A stretch of 64,000 nucleotides of DNA from Desulfofundulus kuznetsovii DSM 6115 (GTDB lineage: Bacteria; Bacillota; Desulfotomaculia; Desulfotomaculales; Desulfovirgulaceae): positions 384,501 to 448,500 of the forward strand of contig NC_015573.1 in assembly GCF_000214705.1 (NCBI RefSeq), given 5' to 3'. This document shows positions 7,657 through 61,020 of this stretch, piece after piece. A program made the position numbers and the translations under genes. The notes beneath the pieces were generated by a model. That model was not told the DNA's origin, made no database searches, and worked only from the letters and a program-made list of their open reading frames with translations. Numbering within the stretch: the stretch's first letter is position 1; every line of letters begins with the position of its first letter.

Positions 7657-7852
7657 AGGAAAAATTGCCCCCACTTACTGTCCGGTGTTTGTTCTCCTGA
7701 ACCATTTTAAACGTTATGACGGTCAAAAGTCCAGAGGGTTCGGCATGTAGGGACAAAAATTTTATTATGGAATTATTAACAATCAGTGAGATCGGTGTTA
7801 ATATACAGAGGGAATAGCCTGTCCAAACTTGTTGAAGAAAGGGGAATACCGG

Positions 7853-8872
7853 GTGCCTGACCCTCACCTCTTGCTGATCTTCGTGGTAATCGTCCTGGCA
7901 CTGACCTTTGACTTTATCAACGGTTTTCATGATACGGCCAACGCCATCGCCACTTCCATTTCCACCAAGGCTCTGAGGCCCCGGACGGCCATCGTCCTGG
8001 CTTCGGTGATGAATTTTGTGGGGGCTATGACCTTCACGGGCGTGGCCAAGACCATCGGCGGCAAAATTGCCGATCCTTTAAGCCTGAGCAACGGGCTGGT
8101 TATTGTGCTGGCAGCTCTTCTGGCGGCCAGTGCCTGGAACCTGATCACCTGGTACTACGGCCTCCCCAGCAGTTCCTCCCACGCCCTGATTGGTTCTTTA
8201 ACCGGGGCTGTGATCGCCGCCGCCGGCTTCTCAGCGGTTAATTTCCACGGTTTCATCAATATCCTGAAAGCCCTGGTTTTCTCCCCGATCCTGGCCGTGG
8301 GCGTGGGTTTTACCATTATGACCTTAATCAAGCTAGTTTTTCGTAACGCCGTTCCTCACCGGATTAACCGGCGCTTCCGCATGCTCCAGGTCTTTACCGC
8401 CGCCTTCCAGGCCTTTTCCCACGGCACCAACGATGCCCAGAAAACCATGGGTATCATTACCTTTGCCCTGGTAGCCGGTGGTTTTCAAAGTTCACTTCAC
8501 GTTCCATTTTGGGTCAAGCTTTCTGCCGCCCTGGCCATGGCGCTGGGCACCTCGGTGGGCGGCTGGAGGATCATCAAAACCGTCGGCACGCGCATCATCA
8601 AGCTGGAGCCCGGCAGCGGGTTTTCCGCCGACTTGAGTTCGGCCCTGGTGATCCTGGGAGCTACTTTGCTCAAGCTCCCGGTGAGCACCACCCACGTGAT
8701 TTCCTCTTCGGTTATCGGCGTGGGTACGGCCAGGCGTTTTTCCACGGTCAAGTGGGGGACGGCGCAAAAGATCGTCCTGGCCTGGGTGGTGACGCTGCCA
8801 GTGACTGCCGTTCTGGCGGGGTTGTCCTACGGGCTGTGCGCCGGTATCGGCCGGCTGGCGGCAGTGTTTTAA
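7853..8872 (+). CDS. PiT-family inorganic phosphate (or sulfate) permease
   Basis: Integral membrane transporter of the inorganic phosphate transporter family. 339 residues from a GTG placed 7 bases after GAAAGGGG. Both halves carry the family signature: GFHDTANAIATSIST near residue 24 and AFSHGTNDAQKTMG near residue 197, with about ten hydrophobic segments. Divergent from the DUF47 gene. PiT homologues in sulfate-reducing and Gram-positive bacteria can carry sulfate (CysP), so the substrate is not certain; the DUF47 neighbour favours phosphate. Confidence 0.93.
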   Translation: MPDPHLLLIFVVIVLALTFDFINGFHDTANAIATSISTKALRPRTAIVLASVMNFVGAMTFTGVAKTIGGKIADPLSLSNGLVIVLAALLAASAWNLITWYYGLPSSSSHALIGSLTGAVIAAAGFSAVNFHGFINILKALVFSPILAVGVGFTIMTLIKLVFRNAVPHRINRRFRMLQVFTAAFQAFSHGTNDAQKTMGIITFALVAGGFQSSLHVPFWVKLSAALAMALGTSVGGWRIIKTVGTRIIKLEPGSGFSADLSSALVILGATLLKLPVSTTHVISSSVIGVGTARRFSTVKWGTAQKIVLAWVVTLPVTAVLAGLSYGLCAGIGRLAAVF

Positions 8873-8963
8873 AAAGGAAAAAGAGCAAAGTAATAGCTGC
8901 CAAGGTAGTTGGTTTTTTCCTTGCAAAAATAAAATAATTAGCCTGCCGCGTAAAACAAAAAGA

Positions 8964-8987
8964 AACCCCCGTAAAGGGGGTTTTGCG
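8964..8987 (+). terminator. Terminator after PiT gene
   Basis: Perfect AACCCCC / GGGGGTT stem with loop GTAAA and a T run. The hairpin is symmetric with A/T flanks on both sides and could work in both directions. Confidence 0.8.
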
Positions 8988-9044
8988 GGTACGTTGCTTA
9001 CCCGGGTATATATGAGCAAGGCGATTTTAACGGGGTTACTGGAC

Positions 9045-9071
9045 GTCGGTCACCAGACCGACCTTCTTTTT
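9045..9071 (+). terminator. Second hairpin terminator in PiT/RNA intergenic region
   Basis: Stem GTCGGTC / GACCGAC with loop ACCA, then CTTCTTTTT. Apart from this, the previous terminator and the minus-strand small RNA, nothing is seen in the ~580 bp between the PiT gene and the next CDS except a second RNA copy. Confidence 0.7.
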
Positions 9072-9096: not shown

Positions 9097-9177
9097 TACA
9101 AAAAGGCTGGCTCCCCGGCCTGCAGCCGGATTGCCAGCCTATCGTTGTTCGATTCGGCTGAAACCTAACTTACTACC
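9097..9177 (-). ncRNA. Small RNA copy A (promoter-hairpin-terminator)
   Basis: On the minus strand a promoter is present: -35 TTGACA at 9212-9207, 17-bp spacer, -10 TAACAT at 9189-9184. About 20 bases after the expected start lies a hairpin at 9159-9136: outer stem AGCC/GGCT, internal loop GA opposite A, inner stem ATCG/CGAT, pentaloop AACAA. Its 3' strand GGCT is also the 5' arm of a terminator (GGCTGGC / GCCAGCC, then TTTTT, 9111-9100). No gene lies downstream on this strand before the convergent PiT gene, so it appears to be a free-standing small RNA rather than a leader. I do not recognise the family. Confidence 0.6.
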
Positions 9178-9338
9178 GCTTTTATGTTACCAAAGGATCA
9201 AGCTCATGTCAATAGGTTTTTAACGTTTTTAACAAAAGCCCGTATCTCTGATATTTCATTGACGTTTGAGAACAATTATTCAGGAAAATTGTCCTAAAAG
9301 CTATTGACAGAGGCTTGTGATTTTGGTAACATGAAGCC

Positions 9339-9412
9339 AAAGAAAAAATAGGCCGAATGGAACAACCATAGGCCGGTTTTCCTGGATATATGCCAGGAAG
9401 CCGGCCTTTTTC
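9339..9412 (+). ncRNA. Small RNA copy B (promoter-hairpin-terminator)
   Basis: Promoter TTGACA at 9304-9309, 17-bp spacer, TAACAT at 9327-9332. Hairpin at 9351-9374: outer stem GGCC/GGCC, GA/A internal loop, inner stem ATGG/CCAT, pentaloop AACAA. The 3' GGCC is shared with a strong terminator whose arms begin GGCCGG (9371) and end CCGGCC (9406), followed by TTTTT. Compared with copy A the outermost pair changes from A-T to G-C and the inner C-G pair to G-C, both keeping pairing. The small-membrane-protein/TauE gene group starts 37 bp downstream, so a cis role there is possible for this copy. Confidence 0.62.
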
Positions 9413-9448
9413 TCTTCCTCAAAATTTTAACGAAAGGGGAGAACGCCG

Positions 9449-9667
9449 ATGGCGGGTAAACGTTCCCCTGCTGCCGTCCAAAGAGAGAAGATGGAAGACG
9501 TCGCCCTGCTGGCCGTCGACGTTGTGGGGGTATCCACTATTTCAGTTCTAACTATCATCCTTTACCTCAAGGCTTTCTCCCCCAATAATTACACTTTACT
9601 GGTTAATAAGCTGTTTTTTACGCTAAATAAACTGGAAAAACTTGCCGTACAAATGTCCACCTGGTAA
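9449..9667 (+). CDS. Small hypothetical protein, first gene of TauE cluster
   Basis: 72 residues with ATG start after AAAGGGGAG. One hydrophobic stretch (about residues 20-42, DVVGVSTISVLTIILYLKAF) probably spans the membrane, followed by a short polar/aromatic tail. I do not recognise the family. It is followed at 18 bp by a 30-residue membrane peptide and then two further genes in the same direction, so it is likely co-transcribed with the TauE/SafE transporter. Confidence 0.55.
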   Translation: MAGKRSPAAVQREKMEDVALLAVDVVGVSTISVLTIILYLKAFSPNNYTLLVNKLFFTLNKLEKLAVQMSTW

Positions 9668-9685
9668 AGAAAGGAGGTGAATCCC

Positions 9686-9778
9686 ATGGGGAAGCTTCTA
9701 ATCAGGATATTCATCGTGCTCTTCTGCACCACTTCCGTAGGCCTGTGGCTTTTCTGGTTGCTTAGTGGGCAGGTGTAG
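9686..9778 (+). CDS. 30-residue single-span membrane peptide
   Basis: Begins MGKLLIRIFIVLFCTTSVG and ends in GQV. The start has a strong AAGGAGGTG site 7 bases upstream, which is the main reason to believe it is translated. Nearly the whole peptide is one hydrophobic helix after two basic residues. It fits tightly between two other small genes upstream of the TauE/SafE permease and may be an accessory subunit; this is inference from context only. Confidence 0.5.
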   Translation: MGKLLIRIFIVLFCTTSVGLWLFWLLSGQV

Positions 9779-9832
9779 GGGCAGGGCTGGCTAAAAAAAG
9801 CCAGGGAAAATTTCAGAAAGGGGGAATCATGA

Positions 9833-10033
9833 ATGATTGGCGAGTACTTCACATGGGCTGCCGGGCTGGCCAAAACTTCACCCTTTACTTATGCCGTGGT
9901 GAATGTGGGAACCATGGTGGTATTGGGTGTAGCCATCGGCCTGATTGCCGACGGGATCTTCAGGTTATTGCGCGTGGATCTGGGCTCCTACAAGAAAGAA
10001 TTCGAAGATGAAAGCGCAGTTATCAAACAATAA
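9833..10033 (+). CDS. Small membrane protein, TauE cluster
   Basis: 66 residues; ATG at 9833 follows AAAGGGGG. It has a central transmembrane helix (about residues 20-44, YAVVNVGTMVVLGVAIGLIADG) and a charged C-terminal tail with LLRVDLGSYKKEFEDE. A second in-phase-shifted ATG four bases upstream gives a meaningless frame. Family not recognised. Position directly before the TauE/SafE gene suggests a joint function. Confidence 0.6.
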   Translation: MIGEYFTWAAGLAKTSPFTYAVVNVGTMVVLGVAIGLIADGIFRLLRVDLGSYKKEFEDESAVIKQ

Positions 10034-10100
10034 AACTCAAGCAATTATTCCGTTCATTCATGGGTTGCAATAATTGTCTTGAAGAAAGGGGTGTTGGGTT

Positions 10101-11303
10101 ATGATGCACATGCCTGTTAGCGGTGTGGATATGGCCTGGTGGCCGCTACTGCTGATTGGCTTTACCGTCGGGGTGGTGGGAGGCTTCTTCGGCATCGGCG
10201 GCGCCTGGATGGTCACGCCGGCATTAAACATCTTCGGTTTCCCCATGATTTATGCGGTGGGCACCGACATGACCCACCTGGTGGGTAAATCCATTATAGC
10301 CACCTTCAGACACTGGAAATTCGGCCACGTCAGTGCAATTATAGCGGTCGTGATGCTCATCGGCACCTTCTCCGGCATTGAAACCGGCGCCCAAGTTCTC
10401 CTCTGGCTCACGAAAAAGGGAATTGCCGGAAGTGTGGTGCGTTACATCTACATGGTGTTGTTGGCCTCCATCGGTATTTTTATGCTTTCGGAATACCTGC
10501 GGGTAAGAAAGCTGGAAAAGGAAGCGGGCAAGCAGGTTAAAGACGTCGTCGGCACCGCCTGGTCCCGCTGGATCCAGGACACCCTCAACATCTGGCCTAC
10601 CTTCTACTGCCCTGTAGCCAGGATGCGCGTCTCCATGTGGGCCATTCTCTTCGTGGGCGTAGTCACCGGTTTTGTAGCCGGTATCCTCGGGGTTGGCGGC
10701 GGTATCCTGCGAGTACCTGCGCTGATTTATTTGATGGGTGTACCGACAAAGATTGCCGTGGGTACCGACCTGTTTGAGGTTATGTTCTCGGGAGCTTACG
10801 GCGCCTTTACGTACAGCTTGAAGGGCGGTGTGGAACTGGTTGCCGCAGTAATCATGCTTCTGGGAGCCAGCGTGGGTGCCCAGTTAGGTACTGTTTGTAC
10901 CAAGTATGTGTACGGCATCACCATCCGCTTGGTCTTCTCAATTGCTACCTTCTTTGCCTGTACCTCGGTGATCCTTAAGGAAATTTCCTCCCGCTGTGCG
11001 GCGGTTTACAAGAAGCCTTTTGAGGCTTTCCTCGCGGAACAAGGGCTTACACCTGCTGAAATCTCCGCCATATACGCGAAAAAGAGCGCCGTTTATCATT
11101 ACATGGTAGAGGTAGCCAACAAGCCCGATTGGTGGGCCGCATACACAAAGTACTACCTCTGGAACCAGGCGGGGGGTATTATGATACTTACCGCCGCTGT
11201 GGGTATTACTGCCTACATTCTCATCCAGCTCTACCTGGGCGTGGCCAGAGAAGTCAAGGAAAAGCGCCTGCGCGAGCAGGAAGCTGCCAAGATGAAAGCA
11301 TAA
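10101..11303 (+). CDS. Sulfite exporter TauE/SafE family permease
   Basis: 400-residue membrane protein with two homologous halves, each opening with a glycine-rich signature (VGGFFGIGGAWMVTPAL near residue 30; VAGILGVGGGILRVPAL near residue 195). About eight to nine transmembrane segments; a cytosolic-looking stretch separates the halves (~residues 137-180) and another lies before the last helix (~300-350). The family exports sulfite, sulfonates or sulfoacetate. In an anaerobe of sulfate-reducer type a role in moving sulfite or a related oxyanion is plausible but unproven. Start ATG with AAAGGGGTG upstream. Last gene of the four-gene cluster. Confidence 0.88.
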   Translation: MMHMPVSGVDMAWWPLLLIGFTVGVVGGFFGIGGAWMVTPALNIFGFPMIYAVGTDMTHLVGKSIIATFRHWKFGHVSAIIAVVMLIGTFSGIETGAQVLLWLTKKGIAGSVVRYIYMVLLASIGIFMLSEYLRVRKLEKEAGKQVKDVVGTAWSRWIQDTLNIWPTFYCPVARMRVSMWAILFVGVVTGFVAGILGVGGGILRVPALIYLMGVPTKIAVGTDLFEVMFSGAYGAFTYSLKGGVELVAAVIMLLGASVGAQLGTVCTKYVYGITIRLVFSIATFFACTSVILKEISSRCAAVYKKPFEAFLAEQGLTPAEISAIYAKKSAVYHYMVEVANKPDWWAAYTKYYLWNQAGGIMILTAAVGITAYILIQLYLGVAREVKEKRLREQEAAKMKA

Positions 11304-11321
11304 AGCTTATCTCCCGCAGGG

Positions 11322-11358
11322 AAGGAGTCCCGGTATATAGCCGGGGCTCCTTATTTTT
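11322..11358. terminator. Bidirectional terminator after TauE gene
   Basis: Long stem AGGAG-CCCGG / CCGGG-CTCCT around TATATAG, followed by TTATTTTTA on the plus strand; sits exactly between the convergent TauE gene and the zinc-ribbon membrane protein. Confidence 0.8.
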
Positions 11359-11677
11359 ATAGACCCGGGGGCTTGGGGCGCCAGAACTTATCGGGTTCTT
11401 CCGGGTTCCAGTAGGCATCACAGTCCAGGCAGCAGTATTTCCCCAGGGGCGGGATAAGGCATACAAACAGGCCACAAAGTAAAGCAATGGGAATCATGTT
11501 GCGTATCCACGGGTAAAAGTAGCCCAGCAGGAAAAAGAATAGTGCTCCCCCAAATCCCAGGCCCAACCCGGCTGCCAGCCTGATAATACGTCCGCGGGTG
11601 GTGTTTTTTGAACCACAGGCGGGGCAAGGAGGCGTCTTGATTTTTAGAAAAGATAAACCCACAGCGGATTCCCCCAT
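11357..11677 (-). CDS. Zinc-ribbon membrane protein, hypothetical
   Basis: 106 residues. An N-terminal CPACGSKNT and a C-terminal CCLDCDAYW supply two CxxC pairs able to form a zinc ribbon, separated by two hydrophobic spans (about residues 33-52 and 57-76). No function is assignable. The start ATG lacks a good ribosome-binding site, so the exact N-terminus is uncertain. Convergent with the TauE gene. Confidence 0.6.
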   Translation of the reverse strand: MGESAVGLSFLKIKTPPCPACGSKNTTRGRIIRLAAGLGLGFGGALFFFLLGYFYPWIRNMIPIALLCGLFVCLIPPLGKYCCLDCDAYWNPEEPDKFWRPKPPGL

Positions 11678-11872
11678 TCATATGTTTGTGAAATAATTCG
11701 CTAATTATCTCGTTTTCCCTATTTAAATAACGTAAAAAATTTTTGGGAAGCCGAATTTTTTAATCTTTTAAATTTTGCGATTTCCATTGACCCTTGACAG
11801 GTGGTGTATTATTATTTAAGTTAAAGAAAATGTACCTTGAAAAATAAAAATGGGGTATTGGGGGGAAGATCC

Positions 11873-12019
11873 ATGTGGATGGGGGAGTGGGAGTGTTCTC
11901 CTAACCAGGTGGAAGAATCGAGCTTGCTGTGCGACCTTATTGACGTCCTGGGTTCTTTCGTCAGCGGCGCTCTAATGGTTATATGGCTTTCCCGTATGCT
12001 GGGACCAATCGTAGCATAG
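11873..12019 (+). CDS. Small hypothetical protein (48 aa)
   Basis: Starts at the ATG of MWMGEWECSPN, 6 bases after GGGGGAAG; a TTG 36 bases upstream extends the same frame but lacks such a site. The C-terminal half (about residues 25-45) is a single hydrophobic helix ending at PIVA. A promoter-like TTGACA (11794-11799) with TAAGTT 17 bp later lies upstream. No family recognised; a stand-alone short gene between the zinc-ribbon gene and RNA copy C. Confidence 0.45.
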   Translation: MWMGEWECSPNQVEESSLLCDLIDVLGSFVSGALMVIWLSRMLGPIVA

Positions 12020-12099
12020 TACTAAGGTTATACGCATTTTAAAAGAAATTTTCTTCACCTCCACTTTACAGAGGCTTGTCCTTTTGGTAACATAAAGAG

Positions 12100-12166
12100 A
12101 AAGGGCCGAATGGAACAACCATAGGCCGGTGTCCTGGTAATTACCAGGGTATCGGCCTATTTGTCT
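12100..12166 (+). ncRNA. Small RNA copy C (promoter-hairpin-terminator)
   Basis: Promoter TTTACA (12065-12070), 17-bp spacer, TAACAT (12088-12093); the spacer GAGGCTTGT-TTTTGG is almost the same as in copy B. Hairpin 12104-12127 has the same GGCC/GGCC, GA/A, ATGG/CCAT and AACAA elements as copy B. The terminator uses the shared GGCCG arm with CGGCC at 12153-12157 and a weaker TATTTGTCTT tail. The terminator arms differ completely in sequence from copy B yet stay complementary. The histidine kinase gene begins 258 bp downstream. Confidence 0.6.
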
Positions 12167-12423
12167 TGCAGACAACAACCCCCTCTCCCCTCACTTCACC
12201 CCCAAACCCGCATTTGAAATATTACCTTGAATGTGGCCTCCTTTTCAAGGGGCCTTTCCTTTTTGGTAACTACCACGGAGAAAAAATAAACCTTTAAGTT
12301 TAAAAAGATTTTTCACTGGCCGGAAGGCGAATATTTTTTACCCGTTAGAAGGAATGTTTACGGCACAAGCGAAATATTTCACAAGTAGGGAGTAATTGCG
12401 GGCGGGAAAGGGGAGGTGCCAGG

Positions 12424-13935
12424 ATGGTAAATTTCCGGCCCCAGAGTTTCAAGCTGCAGCTGATAAGTATAGTGGCCATATTGTTGATTGTTCCCGTGCT
12501 GGTGATGCTATACGACATTCTTTTTGCTTCCCGGACGGATGACCAGTTGATCAAGGACATGCAAAACCGGCTGGTTGCGCTGGGTGATCATCTGGGCGAA
12601 CAGATGGAGGCCCGTGCTCTGGAGCAATGGAAAGCCAATCCCCGCCCAGACTTAACCGGTTTTCTGGTGGATGAGTTTAACCGTTTGGCTGCCCCCCTCA
12701 CCAGCAGTCACCCGGGAATTCGTTGCGGTCTATATATCACCGGTCAGGAACGCATTTGGGTGCAGGGGTTTCTCCACGAATACCGGCCCCGCCAACCGGA
12801 AACGCCTGAAGAGCGGGTAGAACGCATTTTTAGGGAGGCTGAGGAAGGCATTAAGGCCGTGCTGGCCGGGGGGCAGCCGATTACCAGGATCGGCCAGACC
12901 TGGGATGACCAGTTTCTTGAGTACCTGGTGCCGGTGCGTATCCAGGGAAAAGTGGTGGCTGTGGTCTGGGTTGAGGAGCGGCTGCACCCCCTCTTTGCCC
13001 GGAGTGCCCGGGTGCGTCTTTTGCTGCGCTACGCCACTTTAGGGATCTTTAGTTTTGCGGTGGTGGCCACCCTCGCCAGCATTCTTTCCCTGGTACGGGG
13101 AGTGGGCCGGTTGAAGGAGGGATTGCTGGAACTGGAGAAAAACCTGGAAGCAAGGATCCCGGAAATGCCCGGGGAACTGGGGGAAATCGGCCGGGCCGTC
13201 AACCAGATGGCGGCAAACCTGGCGGAAAAGGAGCAACTGGTGGAGCACCTGCGTCGTTCCGAACACCTGGCGGCCCTGGGCCGGCTGGTTACCGATATTG
13301 CCCACGAGTTGCGCGCTCCCATCGGCATCATGCAGTCCACGGTGGAGGTGGTCAGGCCTTCCCTGGAGAAAGATGAGGGGATGAAAGAACCGCTGGCCAT
13401 CATAGAAGAACAAATTGGCCGCTTAAATGGGCTCATTGGCGAACTGCTGGACTTTGGGCGACCGGGCAGCGGCATGAAGGAAGTAAATCTGAACGATTTG
13501 ATATCCGAAATTGCCGTTGCCAGCAGAGCGTATTTGAGCCAAAACGGGGTGGAATTAAATTTATCCCTGGCCGATGGTTTGCCACCGGTAAGGGGCAACC
13601 GGGAGAAGCTCCAGCAGGTGTTTTTAAATTTGATCGTTAATGCTATACAGGCCATGTCCGGTGGTGGCCGCCTCGATATAGAAACTTTTGCTTCTAAAGA
13701 CGGGGTTTGCGCGGTTTTCAGGGATACCGGGGAGGGCATTCCTCCCGAGGATTTGGAGCATATCTTCCAGCCCTTCTTTAGCCGCAAAACCAGGGGGAGT
13801 GGTTTGGGCCTGGCCATCAGCCAGGAAATTGTCCGCATCCACGGAGGATCGATCACGGTGGAAAGCCATCCCGGCCAGGGCACGGTCTTTACCGTGTGCC
13901 TGCCGGTTAGGAGTAACGGAGAAAAGGAGGGTTAA
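12424..13935 (+). CDS. Membrane sensor histidine kinase
   Basis: 503 residues. Transmembrane helix 1 at ~13-35, an extracytoplasmic sensor region of about 165 residues (~36-198), helix 2 at ~200-222, a HAMP linker, then HisKA with the phospho-acceptor in DIAHELRAP (~residue 296) and a HATPase domain with NLIVNAIQA, RDTGEGIPPED and GSGLGLAIS. It is of the NtrB/AtoS-like class. The receiver gene follows after 3 bp, so the pair forms one operon. The signal is unknown; neighbouring genes (TauE/SafE transporter, DUF2292) only hint at sulfur. Confidence 0.93.
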   Translation: MVNFRPQSFKLQLISIVAILLIVPVLVMLYDILFASRTDDQLIKDMQNRLVALGDHLGEQMEARALEQWKANPRPDLTGFLVDEFNRLAAPLTSSHPGIRCGLYITGQERIWVQGFLHEYRPRQPETPEERVERIFREAEEGIKAVLAGGQPITRIGQTWDDQFLEYLVPVRIQGKVVAVVWVEERLHPLFARSARVRLLLRYATLGIFSFAVVATLASILSLVRGVGRLKEGLLELEKNLEARIPEMPGELGEIGRAVNQMAANLAEKEQLVEHLRRSEHLAALGRLVTDIAHELRAPIGIMQSTVEVVRPSLEKDEGMKEPLAIIEEQIGRLNGLIGELLDFGRPGSGMKEVNLNDLISEIAVASRAYLSQNGVELNLSLADGLPPVRGNREKLQQVFLNLIVNAIQAMSGGGRLDIETFASKDGVCAVFRDTGEGIPPEDLEHIFQPFFSRKTRGSGLGLAISQEIVRIHGGSITVESHPGQGTVFTVCLPVRSNGEKEG

Positions 13936-13938
13936 CCC

Positions 13939-14301
13939 ATGGCCCGGATTCTGGTTATTGACGACGAGAAGGGGATGTGCTGGGCGCTGAGAAAGGCTTT
14001 AATGGATGAAGGTTATGAGGTGCTCACCGCCAATAGCGGTCCGGAAGGGTTGAATTTACTGGCCAAAGAGGAAGTAGATTTAGTGCTTCTGGATATCAAG
14101 ATGCCGGGGATGAGCGGTCTGGAGGTCCTGGAGCACATCCGGAAGAAGGATGAAAAGCTGCCGGTAATCATTATGACCGCGTTAAGCAGCTTGCCCACCG
14201 CACTGGAAGCCCTGCAACGGGGCGCCAGTGGTTATGTAACCAAACCCTTTCAATTGAGCAATCTTAAGGATACGGTAACCAAAGTCCTTTCCGTTACCTG
14301 A
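13939..14301 (+). CDS. Single-domain response regulator (receiver only)
   Basis: 120 residues comprising just a CheY-like receiver: acidic pair VIDDE, phospho-acceptor LLDIKMPG (~Asp54), conserved Thr in MTALSS and Lys in TKPF. No output domain, so it must act through protein contact or phosphorelay. The last residues VLSVT run into the inverted-repeat element that begins at 14298: the TGA stop is made of the element's own first bases. In the pre-insertion sequence, reconstructed from the duplicated target, the frame would have gone on by a single Ser before TGA, so the product is essentially unchanged. Confidence 0.93.
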   Translation: MARILVIDDEKGMCWALRKALMDEGYEVLTANSGPEGLNLLAKEEVDLVLLDIKMPGMSGLEVLEHIRKKDEKLPVIIMTALSSLPTALEALQRGASGYVTKPFQLSNLKDTVTKVLSVT

Positions 14302-14557
14302 GTTATCCCCACTTTCCAACTACCCTGTTTTGGCTCCCGCTCGCTCCAGTGAGCCTCGCGGGCCAAACTAGTGCTCGGCTCAAAGCTCCGGCAGGCTTCC
14401 CGGCAAATTCGGCATCCTGCCTCAGTTGCCGGCCTCGGGCATCCATGCCCTCGGGCCTGCCTTCGCTTTTCGCCTCGCTAAGTTTGGCTAGCCGCTCGGC
14501 TCAAGTCGCTCGCTACCGAGCCAAAACAGGGGCTTAAAAAAACTGGGGATACTTCAG
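14298..14557 (+). repeat. 260-bp MITE-like element, copy 1
   Basis: Non-coding element with imperfect ~40-bp terminal inverted repeats: left CTGAGTTATCCCCA...CCTGTTTTGGCTC, right complement CTGAAGTATCCCCA...CCTGTTTTGGCTC. It is flanked by an exact 9-bp direct repeat TTCCGTTAC (14289-14297 and 14558-14566), a target-site duplication. Copies of the same length are at 35664-35923 and 60616-60875. A 62-codon open frame inside is shared by the copies but has no start signals. The -35 box of RNA copy D starts 12 bp after the right end. Confidence 0.9.
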
Positions 14558-14604
14558 TTCCGTTACCAGTTGACAATATTGCGCTGATTTGTTATCCTCA
14601 AAAT

Positions 14605-14720
14605 AGGTCGGGTTTCCGGGTTGGAACAGACAATCAAGCAATATGAGCAGCCGAATCGAACAACGATAGGCTGGCCTGTCCGGTTACTTGGGTGACCGGC
14701 GAGGTCAGCCTTTGTTTTTG
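14605..14720 (+). ncRNA. Small RNA copy D (promoter-hairpin-terminator)
   Basis: Promoter TTGACA (14570-14575), 17-bp spacer, TATCCT (14593-14598). The 5' leader is longer than in the other copies (~45 bases). The conserved hairpin is at 14649-14672 (AGCC/GGCT, GA/A, ATCG/CGAT, AACAA loop). The terminator reuses GGCT as GGCTGGCC with GGTCAGCC at 14703-14710, followed by TTTGTTTTT. The downstream DUF2292 gene has its own promoter-like sequence, which again suggests an independent small RNA. Confidence 0.6.
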
Positions 14721-14771: not shown

Positions 14772-14800
14772 TTGACGGGAAGAGGGCGCTATGATATTGT
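14772..14800 (+). promoter_or_regulatory. Promoter-like sequence for DUF2292 gene
   Basis: TTGACG, 17-bp spacer, TATTGT. Located between the terminator of RNA copy D and the DUF2292 start codon. Confidence 0.5.
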
Positions 14801-14925: not shown

Positions 14926-15129
14926 ATGACAAAAGAGGTCGGTACCCCGCAGGGATTTACCAACCGGGAGATGCAGTTAATAAAATTCATCCGGGAACTG
15001 GGCTGGGGGGAAGTCAGGTTGCGGGTGGAAAACGGCCAGCCGGTTTTGATATACGAAGCCATCAGAACAGTAAAACTGGAAGAGGATGCCCTTTTCAGCA
15101 AGGGCCGCAAAAAACAGGCCCCCGTGTGA
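14926..15129 (+). CDS. DUF2292 (YezD-like) small protein
   Basis: 67 residues with ATG after AGGGGAGG. The core LIKFIRELGWGEVRLRVENGQPV matches the compact DUF2292 pattern (helix followed by a beta hairpin). Function unknown. Flanked upstream by RNA copy D and downstream by about 280 bp holding no gene that I can see except the tRNA-Gly promoter. Confidence 0.75.
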   Translation: MTKEVGTPQGFTNREMQLIKFIRELGWGEVRLRVENGQPVLIYEAIRTVKLEEDALFSKGRKKQAPV

Positions 15130-17300: not shown

Positions 17301-17963
17301 TCAATGACCGGACATTTCCAGGCGCAGGAGCCTGATTTCCCGGTCGTGCTCTTCCAGTTTGATAAAAGTTTCTACTTGTCTTCGTGCAAGGTGCTCGACT
17401 CTTTCTTCGATTCTGGCCACGGAGTTTCTGATGCTGACGAAATAATCCATGTGAACTGCGCGGGCATCGAAGAGGGCGCGGATCTTATCGATGATTTCGT
17501 TTTCGATAAGGGCTTCCATTCGTTCCATGCGCCCGGCGAGCTCCTGCTGGCCCTGCTCCAGGCCGCTGACGCGCTTAACAAGCTCGTGCTGGCCCTGTTC
17601 CAGGCTGCTGACACGCTTAACAAGCTCGTGCTGGCCCTGTTCCAGGCTGCTGACGCGCTTAACAAGCTCCTGCTGGCCCTGCTCAACGTTGCTGATGCGC
17701 TGTTCCATTCGTTCTATGCGCCCGGCGAGCTCCTGCTGGCCCTGTTCCAGGCCGCTGACGCGCTTGACAAGCTCCTGCTGGCCCTGCTCAACGTTGCTGA
17801 TACGCTGTTCCATTCGTTCCATGCGCCCGGCGAGCTCCTCCTGGCCTTGTTCGAGGCCGCCGATGCGCTGCTCCACGTTGCCGATGCGTTGATCCATATT
17901 GCCGACACATTGATTCAAGGCCTTTAATTCACCGAGGATTTCTTTCAGCAGTTGCTCGGACAT
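17301..17963 (-). CDS. Repeat-built coiled-coil protein, hypothetical
   Basis: 220 residues, mostly heptad coiled coil. Residues ~20-145 are made of near-identical units: 14-residue blocks of the type LEQGQHELVKRVSS occur in tandem and combine with MERMEQRISNVE blocks into a ~35-residue higher-order unit. At DNA level these appear as 42-bp direct repeats, so unit number may vary by recombination. The C-terminal ~70 residues (after ENEIIDKIRALFDARAVHMD) are not repetitive. No signal peptide or membrane span. Family members with this look are common in Clostridia but without known role. Start ATG after GGGGGAACG. Confidence 0.75.
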   Translation of the reverse strand: MSEQLLKEILGELKALNQCVGNMDQRIGNVEQRIGGLEQGQEELAGRMERMEQRISNVEQGQQELVKRVSGLEQGQQELAGRIERMEQRISNVEQGQQELVKRVSSLEQGQHELVKRVSSLEQGQHELVKRVSGLEQGQQELAGRMERMEALIENEIIDKIRALFDARAVHMDYFVSIRNSVARIEERVEHLARRQVETFIKLEEHDREIRLLRLEMSGH

Positions 17964-35663: not shown

Positions 35664-35923
35664 CTGAGTTATCCCCACTTTCCAACTACCCTGTTTTGGC
35701 TCCCGCTCGCTCCGGTGAGCCTCGCGGGCCAAACTAGTGCTCGGCTCAAAGCTCCGGCAGACTTCCCGGCAAATTCGGCATCCTGCCTCAGTTGCCGGCC
35801 TCGGGCATCCATGCCCTCGGGCCTGCCTTCGCTTTTCGCCTCGCTAAGTTTGGCTGGCCGCTCGGCTCAAGTCGCTCGCTAACGAGCCAAAACAGGGGCT
35901 TTAAAAAACTGGGGATACTTCAG
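35664..35923 (+). repeat. 260-bp MITE-like element, copy 2
   Basis: Same length and orientation as copy 1, differing at only a handful of positions. Flanked by an exact 9-bp direct repeat TTACCCCGG (35655-35663 and 35924-35932). The valS -35 box starts 12 bp after its right end. Together with the preceding short repeat it accounts for most of the 474-bp gap between the solute-binding protein and valS. Confidence 0.92.
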
Positions 35924-60922: not shown

Positions 60923-61020
60923 CCGTAGGCAGTTTTCGCGCTGCCGCAACCGCACGAAAGGGGTTTTATAAAAGGGTAAAGGTCCCTACCTGCTTTCGGC
61001 GAGACCTGAGAAAGGGGAGG
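60923..61020 (+). promoter_or_regulatory. Ribosomal L21 leader RNA element
   Basis: About 100-nt leader before rplU with hairpins GGCAG/CTGCC (~60927-60944) and GGTC/GACC around CTGCTTTCGGCGA (~60981-61006). Position, size and hairpin layout correspond to the L21 leader known from Firmicutes, presumed to mediate autogenous control. Identification by eye. Confidence 0.6.

Follow-up and report, generated by a model that had tools for sequence, protein, structure and literature searches.

The window analysed here, a 64,000-nt stretch of the Desulfofundulus kuznetsovii DSM 6115 genome (NC_015573.1), contains four copies of a small hairpin element, termed A to D, among genes for a TauE/SafE family permease, a two-component pair and a small DUF2292-like protein that we call F2 (Table 1). 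The copies share a 22-mer, GCCGAATSGAACAACSATAGGC, located at 9137-9158 on the minus strand and at 9352-9373, 12105-12126 and 14650-14671 on the plus strand, where chance would provide 0.01 copies per window with up to three mismatches allowed; a search of the whole 3.6 Mb genome returned these four alone. Each copy starts with a sigma-A-like promoter whose two elements lie 17 bp apart; a TG precedes the -10 element in all four cases. The promoter is followed by a 24-nt hairpin with the consensus RGCC-GA-ATSG-AACAA-CSAT-A-GGCY, the 3' strand of which (AGGCY...) also serves as the 5' arm of an intrinsic terminator. A preliminary description of this DNA had proposed this arrangement of shared hairpin, 17-bp promoters and overlapping terminators, and our sequence search confirmed it.

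The hairpin occurs far beyond this locus. A covariance model built from 17 hairpins of the bacterial family was run on all 113 genomes of the class, and strong matches (E below 1e-5) were obtained in 33 of them, representing 22 genera, with copies usually clustered as two to seven per genome inside a few kb. An independent pattern scan recovered the element in named genomes of Desulfofundulus, Desulfovirgula, Desulfoscipio, Desulfotruncus, Desulforamulus, Desulforudis, Ammonifex and Pelotomaculum. The hairpin family is not a local duplication, and its conservation extends beyond near-identical duplicates, in keeping with the preliminary description of a distinct RNA. Standard pairs fill 96.6% of the pair cells in 97 copies, and six of the eight pairs show double-sided changes, values matched by none of 500 shuffles. 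Two pairs that had been described as compensatory within the window, the outermost G-C/A-T pair and the inner-stem G-C/C-G pair, covary throughout the family, and the stem accepts G-U wobbles (21 of 82 distinct rows at one pair). Hairpin cores are identical in 51 of 94 copies, and the loop and internal loop are nearly invariant; the AACAA loop, previously considered fixed, is indeed constant in the four window copies and gives way to AAAAA, GACAA or AAGTA in the wider family. Outside the class, we found one convincing hairpin among the sampled genomes of the phylum (G186), located at a contig end.

The claim that the element belongs to no known class also stands, as searches with gathering and relaxed thresholds yielded no Rfam family that scores at or above its gathering threshold at any of the copies; the sole listed overlap is a chance mir-5583 match at copy C (E 3.9). 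The open literature that we searched holds no paper describing the hairpin motif or linking DUF2292 to a riboswitch. Taken at the level of sequence, a previously undescribed and uncatalogued structured RNA family in sulfate reducers and close relatives is well supported. Pattern matches in Xenorhabdus, Clostridium carboxidivorans, a Bathyarchaeota metagenome-assembled genome and others, which lack the terminator, were set aside as coincidences; those in Xenorhabdus share a conserved flank resembling coding sequence. Weak model matches in four further genomes (G021, G100, G053 and G002) were judged not real on inspection.

Competition between hairpin and terminator, suggested earlier for the window copies, is apparent across the family. 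In 82 of 94 copies, all seven positions of the shared strand pair with a 3' arm that precedes a U-tract, as compared with 1.2% for shuffled downstream sequence; at six or more of seven positions the figures are 90 of 94 and about 12%. The hairpin 5' strand, the shared strand and the terminator 3' arm vary together, as in AACT/AGTT/AACT, GGTC/GACC/GGTC and AGCC/GGCT/AGCC. This three-way covariation is direct sequence evidence of two mutually exclusive predicted structures. The hairpin has a median energy of -7.5 kcal/mol and the terminator one of -24 kcal/mol, of which about -13 kcal/mol is left when the first five arm bases are blocked. The terminator should therefore win over the free hairpin unless something holds the latter, and we infer that this is the default direction.

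We next consider the genes that the copies precede. Where a gene follows, it is co-oriented in 80 of 92 cases, which argues that most copies are leader attenuators, a reading well supported by gene order, rather than the independent small RNAs favored in the preliminary description. The elements combine a promoter-proximal terminator, a leader position ahead of a co-oriented gene and a mutually exclusive upstream structure, all generic features of transcription attenuators. The genes found repeatedly as targets encode TauE/SafE permeases, DASS-type anion symporters, formate/nitrite channels, CBS and UspA proteins, a sensor kinase paired with a receiver-only regulator, and F2; a glycine-betaine ATP-binding cassette transporter occurs once. 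Within the window, copy B leads the TauE operon, copy C the kinase and copy D F2. The candidate sulfate transporters of sulfate reducers include TSUP and DASS proteins (PMC5840216), and the link of the targets to anion and sulfur transport holds across genera. Another protein often encoded behind a hairpin, family F9 (about 146 amino acids; L103 9150-9644, L105 5914-6354 and others), has no Pfam or NCBIfam match, and its sequence style, CYVCIFEKPxYQGxYxIIGPGE, is reminiscent of beta/gamma-crystallin domains.

Table 1. Promoters, hairpins, terminators and genes at the four hairpin copies, in window coordinates.
Feature	Position	Strand	Basis
Copy A promoter, TTGACA-17-TAACAT	9184..9212	-	sequence
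Copy A hairpin, AGCC GA ATCG AACAA CGAT A GGCT	9136..9159	-	
Copy A intrinsic terminator; 5' arm is the hairpin 3' strand	9100..9140	-	
Copy B promoter, TTGACA-17-TAACAT	9304..9332	+	
Copy B hairpin, GGCC GA ATGG AACAA CCAT A GGCC	9351..9374	+	
Copy B overlapping terminator, within the leader of the small-membrane-protein/TauE operon	9370..9411	+	
72-aa small protein, first open reading frame after copy B, no Pfam match	9449..9667	+	
TauE/SafE family permease (PF01925, E 3.1e-41), likely copy B target	10101..11303	+	
Copy C promoter, TTTACA-17-TAACAT	12065..12093	+	
Copy C hairpin	12104..12127	+	
Copy C overlapping terminator	12123..12166	+	
Sensor histidine kinase, copy C target, not specific to hairpin genomes	12424..13935	+	
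Response regulator, receiver domain only, without ANTAR or DNA-binding output (Pfam)	13939..14301	+	
Copy D promoter, TTGACA-17-TATCCT	14570..14598	+	
Copy D hairpin	14649..14672	+	
Copy D overlapping terminator	14668..14719	+	
Second promoter-like site, TTGACG-17-TATTGT, downstream of the copy D terminator	14772..14800	+	
F2, 67-aa DUF2292-like protein, candidate RNA-binding partner	14926..15129	+	

Genome-wide profiling, which goes beyond the preliminary description, revealed that the hairpin co-occurs with F2. With a presence threshold of E below 1e-20 over the same class genomes, F2 is found in 33 of 33 hairpin genomes and in one of the 80 others (phi 0.98). Eight genera mix hairpin-bearing and hairpin-free genomes, and hairpin and F2 co-segregate in seven of them. 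F2 is preceded by a hairpin in many genomes. In six genomes from two genera of group f16, a single hairpin stands before a formate/nitrite channel (FNT) operon and F2 stands alone on a different contig, without a hairpin of its own. No F2 at the in-class level was detected in the sampled genomes outside the class. The DUF2292 label given earlier to the window gene is weak for this protein alone, which matches Pfam DUF2292 (PF10055) with E 0.027 and 14.5 bits against a curated cut-off of 22 bits; it gains weight from its homologues, 16 of 30 of which match PF10055 at E<=1 (best 7.8e-5). NCBIfam OscA is matched weakly by three of the 30 (best 0.016), and 25 of the 30 proteins carry a positively charged tail. 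An AlphaFold model of F2 consists of a helix plus a beta-hairpin at low confidence (mean predicted local distance difference test score 65).

Together, we read the elements as protein-responsive transcription attenuators with F2 as the candidate factor, an interpretation of sequence patterns to which we assign a probability of roughly 55%. RNA polymerase would start at the sigma-A promoter and soon make the hairpin. By default, the stronger terminator stem would capture the GGCY strand and end transcription after about 65-115 nt. A trans-acting factor holding the hairpin would keep the terminator base beside the U-tract from closing, and the downstream operon would be read. Co-occurrence points to F2 as this hairpin-binding partner, in many genomes a putative member of its own regulon, and its binding would presumably cause antitermination rather than termination, as with LicT and SacY but with unrelated RNA and protein. 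That DUF2292-like proteins (about 60-75 amino acids, helix plus beta-hairpin) might form a new family of sequence-specific RNA-binding antiterminators, with this hairpin as the first recognised target, is a more tentative proposal to which we give somewhat less than even odds. Because the targets are mostly anion permeases, our guess is that the signal is sulfur or anion availability; of the sulfur or anion stress hinted at in the preliminary description, the transport link has thus held, and the signal itself is still a guess.

Several observations weigh against F2 as the factor or against a uniform mechanism. Genome G053 (genus g28), the exception to co-segregation, contains F2 with no hairpin detected, and G186, the genome outside the class with one strong hairpin, has no F2 at 84% completeness. 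Physical linkage confounds the co-occurrence in most genomes and is clearly broken only in the six f16 genomes, and another equally well-matched factor is possible, as the profiling covered F2 and the kinase. A Foldseek search with the low-confidence F2 model gave nothing significant and matched no RNA-binding fold. In a crude scan that read about one-third of the loci on the wrong strand, a leader terminator was mostly absent from canonical DUF2292 genes in the rest of the phylum. Finally, three copies (L113 6162-6188; L114 6485-6511 and 6737-6763) have a separate terminator that does not use the hairpin strand; there, GGCCGCTTT and AAAGGCGG form a partial anti-terminator pairing, which hints that the expression platform is inverted.

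The closest parallel is provided by the ribonucleic antiterminator (RAT) sites of BglG, SacY and LicT, small hairpins with an asymmetric internal loop. There, too, the hairpin and the terminator are mutually exclusive, the 3' part of the site overlapping the terminator foot (PMC9981650), and readthrough, often of the regulator's own operon, is attributed to a protein that stabilises the hairpin. RAT systems differ in controlling sugar phosphotransferase system genes instead of anion permeases, and F2, at about 67 residues and weakly DUF2292-like, lacks CAT and PRD domains. The hairpin sequence also appears unlike the RAT consensus. ANTAR antitermination (EutV, NasR, AmiR) shares a terminator-excluding hairpin and a two-component pair nearby. 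However, ANTAR substrates are two tandem hairpins with hexanucleotide loops carrying A1 and G4 (PMC3369931), whereas the present element has a single hairpin, its loop has five bases (AACAA, or variants that lack G4), and Pfam detects no ANTAR domain in the neighbouring response regulator (other genome loci were not searched for ANTAR). The family thus falls outside the ANTAR-substrate definition.

Transcription-attenuating riboswitches likewise combine a leader position, terminator competition and transporter targets, and the main rival to a protein-responsive attenuator is a very small riboswitch. The hairpin would bind a ligand such as an anion, sulfur metabolite or metal, the ligand-bound form would block the terminator, and F2 would be a mere target or an accessory of sulfur metabolism. 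The nearly invariant loops and frequently identical cores fit this explanation, as do the typical targets and the position of F2 behind a hairpin in many genomes. Yet stem bases are kept in sequence as well as in pairing, as expected of a protein site, F2 is retained in genomes whose sole hairpin controls a different gene elsewhere, no Rfam riboswitch class matches, and the evidence favours a co-occurring protein partner. To our knowledge, one 24-nt hairpin whose stem has 8 bp would also be smaller than known single-aptamer riboswitches, and we consider this explanation unlikely.

Somewhat less likely still is that another trans-acting factor, either an RNA-binding protein or the response regulator via a partner, binds the hairpin and that F2 is a downstream effector travelling with the regulon. 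A two-component system is part of the cluster in many genomes, and EutV-type signal-responsive antiterminators are under two-component control (PMC3369931); the window regulator, however, is receiver-only, and the kinase is absent from nine hairpin genomes. With phi values of 0.34-0.74 against the hairpin, the kinase profile was insufficiently specific, and the kinase was rejected as a partner.

Independent trans-acting small RNAs are an improbable account of the family, given the co-oriented genes behind most copies. Such RNAs would have their own promoter and terminator and no cis target, a description that fits copy A alone in the window; the predicted 65-115-nt length of the terminated transcript would also suit small RNAs. 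As stated previously, copy A has no downstream gene on its strand, none being found before the 3' end of a PiT-type phosphate permease gene (7829-8872), and its equivalents in two sister genomes (G004 and G001) likewise lack one; these could be orphan or small RNA-like copies. Least probable is a DNA operator in which the dyad ATSG-N5-CSAT binds a dimeric protein and terminators are incidental: the core is a DNA palindrome and such a dyad would also yield symmetrical changes, but the terminator overlap is exact and covaries with the hairpin, G-U wobbles are tolerated, conservation extends to the asymmetric GA/A internal loop, the element always lies ahead of a terminator on the transcribed strand, and no strand-swapped or terminator-less functional copies were seen, the three variant platforms apart.

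The family adds well-supported attenuators for probable sulfate and anion uptake genes in environmentally important sulfate reducers and singles out one small protein as the probable RNA-binding partner. In Pseudomonas corrugata, a sulfate-transport gene cluster encodes OscA, an uncharacterised small protein linked to sulfur starvation (PMC2996968). No RNA link for OscA is described in the literature searched. F2 members resemble this group in matching PF10055 and, more weakly, OscA, and differ as a distinct subgroup whose window member scores under the Pfam cut-off. If F2 does bind the hairpin, a molecular role would follow for some members of the DUF2292/OscA group, which is familiar chiefly through sulfur starvation, and the pair of about 67 residues and 24 nt would be a very compact protein-RNA switch.

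Further features lie close to the copies. Downstream of copy A on the minus strand, a non-coding stretch (8960-9060) is kept in two sister genomes and ends in another strong terminator; it is possibly a small RNA under copy A control via readthrough. The preliminary description had copy D followed by another promoter, and the site listed in Table 1 agrees with this; it could be a source of basal expression for the next gene. Between the response regulator and copy D, a 209-bp GC-rich stretch (14323-14531) has perfect 14-bp inverted repeats at its ends (CCCTGTTTTGGCTC / GAGCCAAAACAGGG). It is probably a dispersed element resembling a miniature inverted-repeat transposable element, since further occurrences of the end sequence lie at 35692 and 60829 of the window. 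Elsewhere, the window contains a ribosomal protein L21 leader (60938-61016), barely above the Rfam gathering score, and a gene (17301-17963) for a 220-aa coiled-coil protein with near-identical repeats (QGQ/HELVKRVSxLE) and long antisense open reading frames.

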